A stretch of DNA of 64,000 nucleotides, taken from NCBI RefSeq assembly GCF_007747215.1, contig NZ_CP036273.1, forward strand, positions 5,688,322 through 5,752,321, read 5' to 3'. Each line of letters starts with the position of its first letter. The first letter of the stretch is position 1. The position numbers and the translations under genes are program-made. This DNA is from Urbifossiella limnaea (GTDB lineage: Bacteria > Planctomycetota > Planctomycetia > Gemmatales > Gemmataceae). A model generated the notes under the pieces. It was not told where the DNA came from and made no database searches. It worked only from the letters and a program-made list of their open reading frames with translations. Of the stretch, positions 5,591 to 9,519 are shown piece by piece.

Positions 5591-5893
5591 TTCCGCGCGC
5601 CCCGCGCGTGGACTTGAATTCGCCGCCGGCGCGGTTTATCGTTCAGGTGGCGACGGCAACGCGAACCGACCGATCCCGAAGCCAGGACCGGCCTCTTCCG
5701 ACCGCCCCTCCCGACAACCCGGCCCCACCCCCGCCCGGGGGCCACGACGACGACGACAACCGGAGACCGCGGCATCCGCTGGACCCCGCTGCTGCGCGAC
5801 CTGATCCGCAAGGCCCGGGAGCTGACCGCGGACCCGCCCGCACCGCCGACCCCGGCGGCCGCCGCCCCGACGACCTACGAGCCGCTGGCGAAG

Positions 5894-6718
5894 GTGGTGC
5901 TGACCGACGAGGTGAACCGCACCCTGTTCGGCGAGTACGCTGCCCACCGCGCCGGCGACCGCGGCGACGAGGAGATCGGCTGGGTGCTGCTGGGCGTGCG
6001 CGGCCCCGACACCGCCACCGTGCTCGCCACCCTGCCGGCCGGCACCGAGCGCGACGCCGGCGAGGCGCACGTAAAGTTCAACAGCGCGGCGCAGGCGGTC
6101 GCCAGCCGGGCGGTGCGGCAGAAGGACCGACGCCTGGCGCTGCTCGGCGTGGTTCACACGCACCCGGGCAGCCTGCGGCACCCGAGCCGCGGCGACTTCC
6201 AGGGCGACCGCGACTGGGTGCGGCAGTTACGCGGCGGTGAGGGCGTGTTCGCCATCGGCACGGCGGATGCAGACCAGAACGCGGACGGCACGACAGTGGG
6301 CTGTCACCCGACGCCGAACACGCAGTGCCTCGGCGGCCTCCGCTTCAGCTGGTACACCCTGGCGGCGGACGCGAAGAAGTACCAGGACGCGGCGCTGGAA
6401 CTGGTGATCGGCCCCGACCTGGCCCGCGACCTCCGCCCGGTGTGGCCGCAGTTCGAGGCACACGCCGCCCGGCTCGACCGACTGGCTCAACAGCAGAGCC
6501 GGGTGCGGTTCGAGGTGGTGGAAGGGAAGTACGGGCCGGCCCTCGCCGTGGTGGTGGGGCTGGCCGAGCCGGGGCACGGCGTCCGCGTGGTGCTGGACGG
6601 CCCCGAAGCGCGGTACGTGTACGAGGCCGGGGAGTCGGCCTTCCAGGTCGATCCCGAGGCGTCCGCCCCGGACGAGGGCGTGTACCGCATCCTGGCCGAG
6701 TTGGCCGCCCGCGGCTGA
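5894..6718 (+). CDS. JAMM/JAB (MPN+) metallopeptidase, prokaryotic deubiquitinase-like
   Basis: The protein has a complete JAMM zinc site: Glu27 in DEEIGWVLLG, then VVHTHPGSLRHPSRGDF giving His88, His90, Ser98 and Asp101 in the exact H-x-H-x7-S-x2-D spacing (numbered from GTG 5894). Such peptidases remove or mature ubiquitin-like modifiers. About 130 extra residues follow the JAB domain and form a second, unrecognised domain. GTG 5894 is the first usual start codon, but protein-like sequence (IRWTPLLRDLIRKARELTA) continues upstream to an ATC at 5774 that has a GGAG eight bases before it; the frame is open from 5618. The next four genes supply E2- and E1-like partners, so this is probably the isopeptidase of that system. 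Confidence 0.85.
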   Translation: MVLTDEVNRTLFGEYAAHRAGDRGDEEIGWVLLGVRGPDTATVLATLPAGTERDAGEAHVKFNSAAQAVASRAVRQKDRRLALLGVVHTHPGSLRHPSRGDFQGDRDWVRQLRGGEGVFAIGTADADQNADGTTVGCHPTPNTQCLGGLRFSWYTLAADAKKYQDAALELVIGPDLARDLRPVWPQFEAHAARLDRLAQQQSRVRFEVVEGKYGPALAVVVGLAEPGHGVRVVLDGPEARYVYEAGESAFQVDPEASAPDEGVYRILAELAARG

Positions 6719-6820
6719 CGCCGCAGCGAAACACGGCGCGACCTCTCCCGCGCCGCCCGCACGATGGTTCCACCCGAATCGTCGTTCCGTTCCCGTCGCC
6801 CGTGTCAGGAGGCCACTCTC

Positions 6821-7003
6821 ATGGACTTCCGTCCGCTGAACGAGGTCGAACGCCGTCAACTCGTCACCGCCCTGCGGGGCAACGCCGACCGCGGCCTGTC
6901 GCTGCTCATGGACCGCCGCGACACCAGCTTCATGGGCGCCGCCGACGAGGTGCCCGACGAGGAGGTCATTGCCGCGATCAAGTCCGTCCCGTGCCACTAC
7001 TAG
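6821..7003 (+). CDS. 60-residue protein of unknown function in the ubiquitin-like cluster
   Basis: An ATG at 6821 lies nine bases after a perfect AGGAGG (6806-6811), the best ribosome binding site in the cluster, so this small gene is very likely translated. The product is predicted largely helical (LNEVERRQLVTALRGNADRG) and ends IKSVPCHY. It has no di-glycine tail and is shorter than a beta-grasp ubiquitin fold, so it is not an obvious modifier. It might be an adaptor or a substrate of the neighbouring E1/E2. I do not recognise the family. Confidence 0.7.
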   Translation: MDFRPLNEVERRQLVTALRGNADRGLSLLMDRRDTSFMGAADEVPDEEVIAAIKSVPCHY

Positions 7004-7007
7004 CGCG

Positions 7008-7081
7008 TCCTTCGTCATCCGTCATTCGTCCTTCGGGTACGACCCAGGCCGAATGACGAATGACGAATGACGAATGACGAC
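7008..7081. repeat. Inverted repeat built from GAATGAC units, between the orphan gene and the E2 gene
   Basis: The right half is four tandem copies of GAATGAC (7051 on); the left half (CTTCGTCATCCGTCATTCGTCC) pairs with it as an imperfect inverted repeat. It fills the whole gap and supplies an alternative in-frame ATG (7067) to the E2-like gene. The composition is clearly lower in GC than its surroundings. Confidence 0.8.
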
Positions 7082-7507
7082 ATGGGCCTGTTGGATACCG
7101 AGTTCGGCAAGCGCCGCCTGCTGACGGTCGAGGTGCCGGCGGTGGAGGCGTACAACTGCGGCCGCGACGCCGGGTTCGGCATCGCGCTGAACCGCGTCGG
7201 CGGCGCGCTGGTGCTCGGCTACCAGCTGAAGCCGTGTCACAACGTGTACCGGCTGGAGACGCGGCTCCTCTCCAGCTACCCGACGGTGCCGCCCGAGACG
7301 CGGGTGTTGACGCCGCTGAAGCACTGCCCGCACCTGCTCGAAGGCCAGACGCTGTGCCTGTGGCGGCAGGGGAGCACGCGGGCGGCGAGCCGCTGGGATC
7401 CGGCGCAGTTCACGTGCGTGTTCGCGGTGCAGGCGGCGTGGCGGTGGCTGGCGTGCTACGAGGTGTGGCACGAGACCGGCGAGTGGCCGCTGCCGGAAGC
7501 CAAGTAG
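7082..7507 (+). CDS. Prokaryotic E2 (ubiquitin-conjugating enzyme-like) protein
   Basis: A 141-residue protein, the size of a minimal UBC domain. The order of motifs follows eukaryotic E2 enzymes: YPTVPPETRVLTP corresponds to the YPxxPPxVxFxT strand-loop, KHCPHLLEG to the HPN region, and TLCLW to the 'G-x-x-CL' active-site segment, making Cys92 the likely catalytic residue. The Asn of HPN is not obvious. An ATG at 7067 within the repeat would add five residues; 7082 was chosen because family-like sequence begins there. Neither has a clear Shine-Dalgarno, so translation may depend on the upstream genes. It should accept an activated modifier from the ThiF-like protein encoded 22 bases downstream. 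Confidence 0.75.
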   Translation: MGLLDTEFGKRRLLTVEVPAVEAYNCGRDAGFGIALNRVGGALVLGYQLKPCHNVYRLETRLLSSYPTVPPETRVLTPLKHCPHLLEGQTLCLWRQGSTRAASRWDPAQFTCVFAVQAAWRWLACYEVWHETGEWPLPEAK

Positions 7508-7529
7508 CAGACGGGCCACGGATCGACCC

Positions 7530-8339
7530 ATGCACGTCTTCCAGGTCGGCGCCGGCAGCGGCGGCATTGTCGTCCTCGACCTCGTGGCCCGCGACCCGCG
7601 AGTCACCCGCCTCACCCTCGTCGAGCCGGACACCTACAAGCCGCACAACGTCTACCGCCATGTGCTCCCGCCCGCGGCCGTCGGCCGGTTGAAGGCCGAG
7701 CTGGCCGCCGAGTGGGTCCGCGAGCGCCGGCCCGACGTGACGGTCGACGCCGTCGTCGCCGACCTGACCGACCCGACCCGCGCCGACGACTTCCACCGGT
7801 TCGCAGAGGCGTGTGACGTCGGCGTGTGCGCCGTGGACAACGAGCCGGCGAAGTTCGCGTTCGACGCCTTGATGCGCGCCGCCGGCAAGCCCTGGACGCT
7901 CGGGGAAGTCCTGAGCGGCGGCATCGGCGGCTGGGTTCACCGATTCGCGCCCGGCGGCGCCTGCTACGGCTGCGTCGCCGCCCACCTCCGGCGCAGCGTG
8001 ACGGAAGAAGCCCCGGCCCCCGCGCCCGACTACTCCGACCCCGGCGGCGCCGCTCAGGAAACGACCGTGCCCGCGAGCCGGGCGAGCATCGCAGTCATCG
8101 CGTCGCTGCACGCCACACTCACACTCGACGTGCTCGGCGGCACGCCGCCGCCCGACTTCACCAGCCTGCTGTTCACCCTGGCGGCGGTGCCGGGGGTGTT
8201 CGACGCGGCGTACCGGCCGTACCGGTTCGCCATCCAAAAGGCGGCCGCGTGCCTGGTGTGCGCGGCCCGACCCGCCCCGGCCGGGGAGGAGCTCGATGTG
8301 GCCCTGGATGAAGCGCTGGCTCGACTGGGTGACAACTGA
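7530..8339 (+). CDS. ThiF/MoeB/E1-like adenylyltransferase
   Basis: A 269-residue E1-like enzyme. The Rossmann loop GAGSGG is at residues 7-12, followed by VEPDTYKPHNVYRH (the D-x-V-x-x-SNLxRQ segment of E1/ThiF proteins) and CDVGVCAVDN (the substrate-binding DN motif). Two CxxC pairs, CYGC and CLVC, probably bind structural zinc as in MoeB and ThiF. It lacks the extra domains of eukaryotic E1. The expected reaction is ATP-dependent adenylation of a modifier's C-terminal glycine and transfer to a cysteine on itself or the E2. The protein starts directly at the first beta strand. Its 3' end overlaps the next gene by 44 bases. Confidence 0.85.
   Translation: MHVFQVGAGSGGIVVLDLVARDPRVTRLTLVEPDTYKPHNVYRHVLPPAAVGRLKAELAAEWVRERRPDVTVDAVVADLTDPTRADDFHRFAEACDVGVCAVDNEPAKFAFDALMRAAGKPWTLGEVLSGGIGGWVHRFAPGGACYGCVAAHLRRSVTEEAPAPAPDYSDPGGAAQETTVPASRASIAVIASLHATLTLDVLGGTPPPDFTSLLFTLAAVPGVFDAAYRPYRFAIQKAAACLVCAARPAPAGEELDVALDEALARLGDN
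8284..8290 (+). promoter_or_regulatory. Ribosome binding site fixing the start at 8296
   Basis: GGAGGAG inside the end of the E1-like gene, five bases before ATG 8296. It supports the long 44-base overlap rather than the later GTG codons at 8329 or 8341. Confidence 0.6.
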
Positions 8340-9519
8340 CGTGCTCCCCCTCTCCCGCTCCCGCCCGCACGGGCAGGCCGTCCACACCCGGTACGAAAAG
8401 GCCGGGCTGGCTCTCTACGACTTGCCGGTGCCGTGGAACGCGGACGCCGTCGTGGTCGAGGTGCTGCTGAAGCTGCCGCCCGCGGCGCGCAAGAAGGGTG
8501 ATTTCACTCTTCGTTTGCCAGGCCGCGAGCCCGTGCCGGCGGAGTCACTTCGCCCCGAGGCCGATAGCCGCCACCGCCTCCTGTTCCGCCTCCCCGTGCC
8601 GGCTTCCACCACCGACGGCGAACTGCTGTGGAAGTCGAAGCACCTGTCGCGGGTGAGCGTGCCGGTGCTCACGGTCGGGGAGTTCCTCACCGGGTTGCGG
8701 CTGACGCTGCCGACGGTCGCGGTACGCCTCGGCGCGCAGACCGTCGCGGCGCAGACGTTCGTGGCGTCGCAGTGCCGCGGGCTGACGGCCACGTGCGTGT
8801 TGCGGGGCGCGACGCCACTGGCACCCGTCGGCGACCTGGGGCTGACGGCCGTGTTCCGCAGCGAGCGCGCGGGCACCACTTACGAGGTGCCGGTGACGCT
8901 GAGCAGCAGCCAGCTGGCGGCGCGGGAGGCGTTGCTCACGGCGGCCTGTCCCAAGGTGCCGCGGCGGGTCGGGCGGTGGGCGGTGTCGTGGGTGATCGGC
9001 GGGCGCGAGATGTGCGTGCAGCGGGTGGAGGCGATTCCGGCGCGGCGGTTCGAGGCGTCGCTGCGGGTGGCCGACACGCGGTTCGTGGCCGCCGACAAGG
9101 CCGGCGCGGTGCGTGTGCTGCGGCAGCCGCCGGCGACGGGCGAGGCGGCGCGCGTGGGGCCGTGCTTCCTGGTGGCGAGTTCCGAGCCGGGGATGGCAGG
9201 AGTGTGCCGGCTCCAAATTCACGCGGCGACGCCGGGGGAGCGCCGGCCGCCGCTGCTGATGGAGCAAGACGTGCTCGTCACCGACGGCCCGACCGTGTTC
9301 GCCCCGGGCCTCCTCGACGCGGCCGAGACGCCGACCGTCGGCGGGTTCGAGTTGCGGCACAAGGGGCGGGTGCTGGGGTCGGCGTCGCTGCGGCCGGTGC
9401 CGAGCGCGGCGCTGACGGCCGAGGGCGGGTTCAAGCCGCCGCCCGACTTCGCGTGGACGCCGACCGCCGACGACGAATTGGCCGAGCGGCTGAGCCGATT
9501 GATGGGCGGCGGCTCCTGA
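8296..9519 (+). CDS. 407-residue protein of unknown function, last gene of the ubiquitin-like cluster
   Basis: I do not recognise this family. The sequence is rich in short hydrophobic beta-like strands alternating with turns (VVVEVLLKLP, FTLRLPGREP, RLLFRLPVP, TAVFRSERAG), suggesting several beta-sandwich domains and no membrane segment. The N terminus (MWPWMKRWLDW) is tryptophan-rich and possibly amphipathic. The protein ends RLSRLMGGGS, a glycine run one residue from the C terminus, a position reminiscent of unprocessed ubiquitin-like modifiers, but this could be chance in GC-rich DNA. Overlap with the E1-like gene shows it belongs to the unit. It could be the modified target, the modifier carrier or a partner that guides the E1/E2. 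Confidence 0.75.
   Translation: MWPWMKRWLDWVTTDVLPLSRSRPHGQAVHTRYEKAGLALYDLPVPWNADAVVVEVLLKLPPAARKKGDFTLRLPGREPVPAESLRPEADSRHRLLFRLPVPASTTDGELLWKSKHLSRVSVPVLTVGEFLTGLRLTLPTVAVRLGAQTVAAQTFVASQCRGLTATCVLRGATPLAPVGDLGLTAVFRSERAGTTYEVPVTLSSSQLAAREALLTAACPKVPRRVGRWAVSWVIGGREMCVQRVEAIPARRFEASLRVADTRFVAADKAGAVRVLRQPPATGEAARVGPCFLVASSEPGMAGVCRLQIHAATPGERRPPLLMEQDVLVTDGPTVFAPGLLDAAETPTVGGFELRHKGRVLGSASLRPVPSAALTAEGGFKPPPDFAWTPTADDELAERLSRLMGGGS

Follow-up and report, generated by a model that had tools for sequence, protein, structure and literature searches.

A vertically inherited E1-E2-JAMM gene set in Gemmatales, with a conserved 60-residue protein as its candidate tag

In the genome of the planctomycete Urbifossiella limnaea (order Gemmatales; 7.8 Mb, single contig), five collinear genes encode what is probably a protein conjugation pathway. 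We analysed a stretch of 64,000 nucleotides, hereafter the window (NZ_CP036273.1, positions 5,688,322 to 5,752,321), in which these genes lie in one direction on the + strand at 5774-9519. They encode a JAMM/JAB metallopeptidase (JAB), a protein of 60 residues (SM), a stand-alone E2, an E1 and a protein of 407 residues (G5). As the order recurs in dozens of genomes and SM, E2 and E1 are under purifying selection, the set is far beyond chance. Because the catalytic residues of E1, E2 and the JAMM peptidase are conserved, we consider it likely that the three enzymes form a conjugation pathway. That this pathway is complete and chromosomal and uses SM, which is predicted to lack the ubiquitin fold, as its tag is a possible reading, which we put slightly short of an even chance. 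An earlier reading of the window, made from the sequence only, had described a compact ubiquitin-like conjugation cluster here; all five genes are present at the place and on the strand that it gave, and its coordinates stand apart from the start of JAB.

The assignment of the 141-residue protein to the E2/UBC family, proposed in the sequence-only reading, is confirmed by profile comparison through the catalytic cysteine. Taken alone, the protein stays below the Pfam cut-off (UQ_con 0.21); it matches the defence-type E2 models of PADLOC (4.9e-11), as do all 24 aligned relatives. A broadened family profile finds UBE2L3 at 2.6e-5, in an alignment where the YP, the PP, the catalytic cysteine and the W-P-A behind it correspond. 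The E2 profile ranked UFC1 first, though weakly (0.064), whereas the broader profile prefers UBE2L3. Cys92, YP66-67 and PH83-84 are invariant among the relatives, and the protein has CPH where classical E2s have HPN.

JAB matches Pfam Prok-JAB above the cut-off (8.1e-9). The five key residues counted in the earlier reading are indeed conserved: among 22 relatives, E67, H128, H130 and D141 are invariant and S138 is nearly so. The start of the gene had to be corrected, as the codon at 5774 is ATC and not ATG, GTG or TTG. The first such codon in the frame is the GTG at 5894, and with this start the JAB domain stays whole. Three relatives, L051, L052 and L032, have ATC in this alignment column too, and the sequence ahead of it is not conserved, so that it may be a rare start codon.

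The E1 matches Pfam ThiF above the cut-off (2.1e-21), and its GxGSGG motif and the four cysteines of its paired CxxC motifs, on which the first assignment had been based, are invariant or nearly so. The residues of the adenylation site (N40, R43, K55 and D103) are conserved. When compared to a MoeB/ThiF-type E1 of the same genome, the N, R, K and D of this site align; however, the latter has an N-terminal RYSRQ helix (the arginine finger) and the crossover-loop motif VGTCETAG, whereas the cluster E1 lacks both this helix and the loop cysteine. It starts two or three residues ahead of the Rossmann strand, a start that we placed there because relatives have a stop codon close upstream. Besides the four CxxC cysteines, only C100 is invariant among the cysteines of the Gemmatales E1, and this position is not a cysteine in G176, a genome from a second planctomycete class. 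The E1s of G176 and of G159, which also lies outside Gemmatales, keep a short N-terminal helix, and the loop cysteine is missing there as well. With the adenylation residues kept and the crossover-loop cysteine absent, we infer that the E1 adenylates its substrate but does not form the usual thioester. In two genomes, G010 (L033:7173-8196) and G009 (L078:5689-6724), the E1 gene lies in two frames with a break near profile positions 204-208, caused by an insertion or a frameshift; the adenylation site is retained in the first part.

Of 102 Gemmatales genomes, one and the same group of 73, covering 32 of 44 genera, has strong matches to E2, SM and E1; the remaining 29 genomes, some of them nearly complete, lack all three alike. 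One further E2 match, in G041, is a weak distant paralogue. The gene order JAB-SM-E2-E1-G5 recurs in the loci that we fetched, although in some of them JAB or the E1-G5 pair is not at the spot. Among the named relatives in Gemmatales are Limnoglobus roseus, Zavarzinella formosa and Gemmata species. Some genomes that still hold SM-E2 carry E1-G5 on another contig or megabases away, and G5 always adjoins E1, including the eight loci where E1 has moved. As E1 moves only with G5 beside it, the set consists of two modules, SM-E2 and E1-G5, plus JAB. JAB was found in 52 genomes and is absent from 21 of the 73 that carry the rest of the set, mainly from genera g7 and g33, where a search elsewhere in the genome found no relocated JAB. 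It has been displaced to another place in the genome in G001, G093 and G095.

To describe the inheritance of the set, we compared its divergence to that of GroEL. Over 62 genomes, the mean identity to the window protein is 77% for E2 and 81% for GroEL, with a Spearman correlation of 0.78. In the gene trees, the genera with more than one row form one group in nine of nine cases for E1 and in eight of nine for E2. Among close relatives, the ratio of nonsynonymous to synonymous substitution rates (dN/dS) is 0.03-0.19 for SM, 0.05-0.16 for E2, 0.16-0.26 for E1, 0.25-0.33 for G5 and 0.34-0.43 for JAB. Judging from these comparisons, the set passes down vertically and, where it is lost, is lost as a whole. 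It is by the same evidence an old inherited part of the chromosome and not a mobile or defence island, unlike the operon types of Iyer et al., whose distribution is sporadic (PMC1779556).

The antiphage context that the sequence-only reading had brought in was thus not borne out. An ordinary antiphage E1/E2/JAB island would agree with the match of the E2 to models from a defence collection, but we consider it very improbable given the vertical inheritance, the GroEL-like divergence and the grouping of genera in the trees. Furthermore, none of the eight neighbouring genes matched a defence gene in PADLOC, which agrees with the earlier remark that no such genes lie nearby. No further neighbour conserved across genera was found around the set, and neither a cGAS/DncV-like nucleotidyltransferase (CD-NTase) nor an effector was found among the five genes or conserved around them.

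In samples drawn from the whole phylum (392 genomes), only three E2 matches lay outside of Gemmatales (G176, G159 and G149), and none was found for SM. In G176, a JAB, a 65-residue protein, an E2, an E1 and a 474-residue protein follow each other in the same order, so that the gene-order check proposed in the earlier reading holds across Gemmatales and in a second planctomycete class. The 474-residue protein resembles G5 in position and size only. The 65-residue protein aligns with SM over its full length with a score of 28.8, where 60 shuffles reached 13.2 at most, and its C-terminus is ...RHYAGR. The E2 genes of G159 and G149 have other surroundings, and no SM could be recognised there. One genome scan for members outside Gemmatales returned only Gemmatales-type contigs. 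The Gemmatales gene set also appeared on contigs titled Bacteroidales or Candidatus Kuenenia stuttgartiensis (L115, L164 and L168); these titles of metagenome bins are probably misassigned.

SM has 60 residues up to a final His-Tyr (HY) in nearly all genomes and 65 in two, and it has no significant match in Pfam, NCBIfam, PADLOC or PHROGs; the same holds for G5, in agreement with the earlier remark that two of the genes have no recognised function. Both ends of SM are invariant (M1-D2-F3-R4 and S-V-P-x-H-Y). SVPxHY is present in 72 of 72 readable SMs, the chain stops exactly there in 61, and no other protein of the set has an invariant C-terminus. In every genome examined, SM lies beside E2. 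Among 51 genomes with JAB, 11 have a tail after HY (A, AG, AGI, AGV, GR, KL or AVVSGQ), whereas none of the 21 without JAB does (Fisher p 0.027, no phylogenetic correction). This is the pattern predicted for a trimming peptidase, although tails are shared among related genomes, which makes the numbers weak. In the AlphaFold model, SM consists of a helix (8-23), two strands (27-30 and 37-41), a second helix (46-55) and a free tail. With a predicted local distance difference test score (pLDDT) of 77 and a predicted template modelling score (pTM) of 0.42, this secondary structure rules out a ubiquitin (beta-grasp) fold at modest confidence. No fold match of the model with E under 1 was found.

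For G5, the AlphaFold model (pLDDT 85.7, pTM 0.72) has three consecutive beta-sandwich domains followed by a C-terminal helix. The matches in Foldseek and VIA-align are filamin, FN3 and immunoglobulin (Ig) arrays: Foldseek aligns G5 to filamin repeats at 2.4e-6 over 348 columns, and VIA-align gives Z up to 9.9 with a high root-mean-square deviation (rmsd) over several domains, and Z 8.7 with an rmsd of 2.6 over 101 residues for the middle domain. G5 would thus belong to the Ig/FN3-like proteins, a statement on the type of fold, from which no function follows. In many relatives, both JAB and G5 start with short basic helices rich in Trp and Phe (MFKWLSRLFGW, MWPWIKRWLDW; 5774-5830 and 8296-8345 in the window), which could place the two proteins at the membrane surface; in the G5 model this N-terminal aromatic helix has low confidence.

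The sequence-only reading had seen no ubiquitin-like modifier in the cluster and had concluded that it is either divergent or elsewhere. No beta-grasp modifier is indeed present in the cluster, as SM is predicted to be alpha-beta-beta-alpha and G5 to be Ig-like. The alternative it left can now be sharpened: SM, predicted at modest confidence to lie outside the beta-grasp fold, nevertheless has the only invariant C-terminus of the set. Elsewhere in the genome, the ThiS/MoaD family has three members: a fusion to ThiG, a protein with its own E1 and a pyridoxal phosphate (PLP) enzyme beside it, and a neighbour of MoaE (partners read from the sequence). None of these three is an orphan that could be a hidden modifier; other ubiquitin-like families were not searched for. 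At L174 (G000:C1:627101-630358), a MoaD/ThiS-family protein, a MoeB/ThiF-type E1 and a PLP enzyme resembling threonine or cysteine synthase lie together, an arrangement that resembles type 4c of Iyer et al.

We regard SM as the best candidate for the tag because it is the only small protein of the set, is never found apart from E2 and has a C-terminus that is invariant through the final residue. We propose that the E1 would bind SM and adenylate the carboxylate of its C-terminal tyrosine. Since the E1 has no crossover-loop cysteine, Cys92 of the E2 would attack the adenylate directly, forming an E2~SM thioester, from which the E2 would hand SM on to a target amine. The JAMM protein would trim SM precursors that have a tail after HY and remove SM from conjugates, and it would be dispensable where SM is made ready-ended. 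G5, coupled to the E1, may be a target adaptor or a scaffold on the membrane side. Taken in full, with a non-beta-grasp tag that ends in His-Tyr, direct transfer from the E1 adenylate to the E2 cysteine and an ordinary cell function rather than phage defence, this proposal is tentative and more doubtful than the existence of an SM-tagging pathway as such.

Several observations weigh against SM as the tag. A C-terminal tyrosine would be unusual for a tag, and in the cyclic-oligonucleotide-based antiphage signalling system (CBASS), conjugation was lost when the terminal Gly was replaced by Ser, Val, Arg or Trp (PMC10097602). The N-terminus of SM (MDFR) is as conserved as its C-terminus, which is also expected of a folded partner protein. 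The constant place of SM beside E2, while E1 moves with G5, would fit a cofactor of the E2 equally well. The association of tails with JAB is weak, 21 genomes keep SM without JAB, and the pTM of the SM model is 0.42.

Some of these points favour the main rival, in which SM is a dedicated subunit of the E2, or supplies a part that is missing from the E1, and the tag is another protein encoded elsewhere. SM stays by E2 in every genome examined while E1-G5 relocate; it is conserved at both ends and predicted to be folded; and an E1 that lacks the N-terminal helix could be completed by a partner. Nevertheless, a sequence that is invariant right to its end would rather be expected of a protein activated at its C-terminus. 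For an unlinked tag, we found neither an orphan among the three ThiS/MoaD proteins, with divergent ubiquitin-like genes outside this family not searched for, nor a further conserved neighbour. We therefore rate this rival as a serious candidate that is on balance rather doubtful.

A further alternative follows the logic of CBASS, with the larger protein of the operon, G5, conjugated by its own C-terminus. This would explain why E1 and G5 are inseparable, and G5 ends in a helix with a short flexible tail, in several genomes with a final Gly. However, the C-terminus of G5 varies in both residue and length, JAB-less genomes included (...RLQ, ...LGGQ, ...NKHPGT, ...EDKQF). A rule of a C-terminal glycine in JAB-less genomes was suggested by the first rows and failed on the full table. 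With an unconserved C-terminus, we rejected G5 as a tag candidate and judge this alternative improbable.

We next compared the set to known pathways. The best PDB match of the E1 profile is UBA5 (3e-9), the single-domain E1 of the UFM1 pathway, whose E2 is the weakly matched UFC1. UBA5 has its catalytic cysteine in the loop where the cluster E1 has none, and UFM1 is a beta-grasp protein, which is not the fold predicted for SM. Also among the best matches is MccB of the microcin C7 pathway (8.9e-8), an E1-like enzyme that activates the C-terminus of a short peptide and not of a ubiquitin fold. An MccB-type function of the set would agree with this match and with the missing thioester cysteine. 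However, the MccB pathway makes an antibiotic and has no E2 or JAMM, whereas here Cys92 of the E2 and the full JAMM site are conserved; SM shows conservation throughout, where the core of a peptide precursor would vary; and no conserved tailoring or export genes lie nearby. We thus consider such a function unlikely. Pup and UBact offer an analogy for SM as tags of about 60 residues outside the beta-grasp fold. Their ligation depends on PafA-type ligases without E1, E2 or JAMM, and no relation to SM was found in the family libraries. In the ThiS/MoaD sulfur-carrier pathways, the carrier is encoded beside its E1, which is not so in the set, as the three carriers of the genome lie at other loci with their own partners.

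In its E1, E2 and JAMM features, the set agrees with the broad class of bacterial ubiquitin-like conjugation systems. The missing beta-grasp modifier would lower the similarity but not affect the broad class, as such a modifier is not required in CBASS. There, the protein that Cap2 conjugates is a cGAS-like enzyme without a ubiquitin fold, attached through its C-terminal residue (PMC10097602); this is a precedent for a tag outside the beta-grasp fold and makes CBASS the closest logic in the literature. Type II CBASS, with Cap2 (E1-E2) and Cap3 (JAB), shares with the set the E1 and E2 activities, a JAB, the absence of a ubiquitin-like protein and the closest E2 family models. In contrast to type II CBASS, the set has separate E2 and E1 genes, no CD-NTase or effector and no E1 loop cysteine, is inherited with the core chromosome, and has SM and G5.

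BilABCD and type 6d of Iyer et al. share a stand-alone E2, a stand-alone JAB, an E1 and one small protein (PMC1779556, PMC11354881). Their small protein is, however, a beta-grasp protein with a C-terminal glycine, whereas SM ends in HY and apparently has neither feature. The E1 of Bil, BilD, has two domains and includes a Cys domain (PMC11354881), whereas the cluster E1 is a single module of 269 residues without one. Furthermore, BilB has a CEHH motif, and the set has the extra Ig-like protein of 407 residues. Types 6a-6c and 6e have an E2-E1 fusion, a JAB-E1 fusion or a polyubiquitin-like gene (PMC1779556), none of which is found in the set. As the features that we tested for CBASS, Bil and types 6a-6e are absent, the set is placed, by its sequence features, among the bacterial E1-E2-JAB systems but outside these groups. 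In the open-access literature, we found no earlier description of the five-gene set; subscription surveys (Burroughs/Aravind or later) may list the group.

The positions of the genes and of their functional sites are collected in Table 1. The genes of E1 and G5 overlap by 44 bases. Upstream of the set lies a prepilin-like/lipoprotein pair (open reading frames (ORFs) read by eye), and downstream follow a hemL-type aminotransferase, a leucyl aminopeptidase, an ECF sigma factor and then GroEL (read from the sequence).

Table 1. Features of the five-gene set, given as positions in the window
Feature	Position	Strand	Basis
JAB, JAMM/JAB metallopeptidase; start codon uncertain	5774..6718	+	Pfam Prok-JAB 8.1e-9, metal-site residues
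JAMM metal-site codons	E67 5972-5974; H128/H130/S138/D141 6155-6196	+	
AGGAGG, ribosome-binding site of SM	6807..6812	+	sequence
SM, 60 residues, family not known, alpha-beta-beta-alpha by prediction; candidate for the modifier or for a partner of E2	6821..7003	+	
Codons for the invariant SM C-terminus S-V-P-C-H-Y	6983..7000	+	SVPxHY in 72/72 readable genomes
E2, stand-alone, UBC family, 141 residues; catalytic Cys92 at 7355-7357	7082..7507	+	PADLOC E2, UBE2L3, invariant columns
E1/ThiF adenylating enzyme, 269 residues; crossover loop about 7977-8084	7530..8339	+	ThiF 2.1e-21
G5, 407 residues, three predicted tandem Ig/FN3-like beta-sandwiches	8296..9519	+	AlphaFold, fold searches, linkage to E1

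Two other loci with ubiquitin-like genes were seen. The first, from another planctomycete class (L072:4539-7442), is a row made up of a 60-residue ORF, an E2, a further E2-like protein, an E1 and a JAB, next to a large ATPase-like gene. This further E2-like protein has a Phd/YefM-like N-terminus (PF02604 4.5e-5), and the locus is a distinct E1-E2-JAB island. Although its ORF is in the same place as SM, no homology to SM was detectable. At L073:1207-7926, an E2 and a JAB-E1 fusion of 542 residues lie beside a Cas2-like ORF of 91 residues and a large RAMP-like gene, and this neighbourhood of a ubiquitin-like module looks like type III CRISPR when read by eye. The N-terminus of this E2 likewise has no detectable homology to SM.

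Lastly, the most thoroughly characterised E1-E2-JAB systems of bacteria are mobile modules that serve defence, whereas the set described here looks like inherited cell biology of a whole planctomycete order. Its conserved small protein of no known family is a candidate tag that can be tested directly. Furthermore, an E1 without a thioester cysteine bears on how the transfer from E1 to E2 could have come about ahead of the eukaryotic ubiquitin system.

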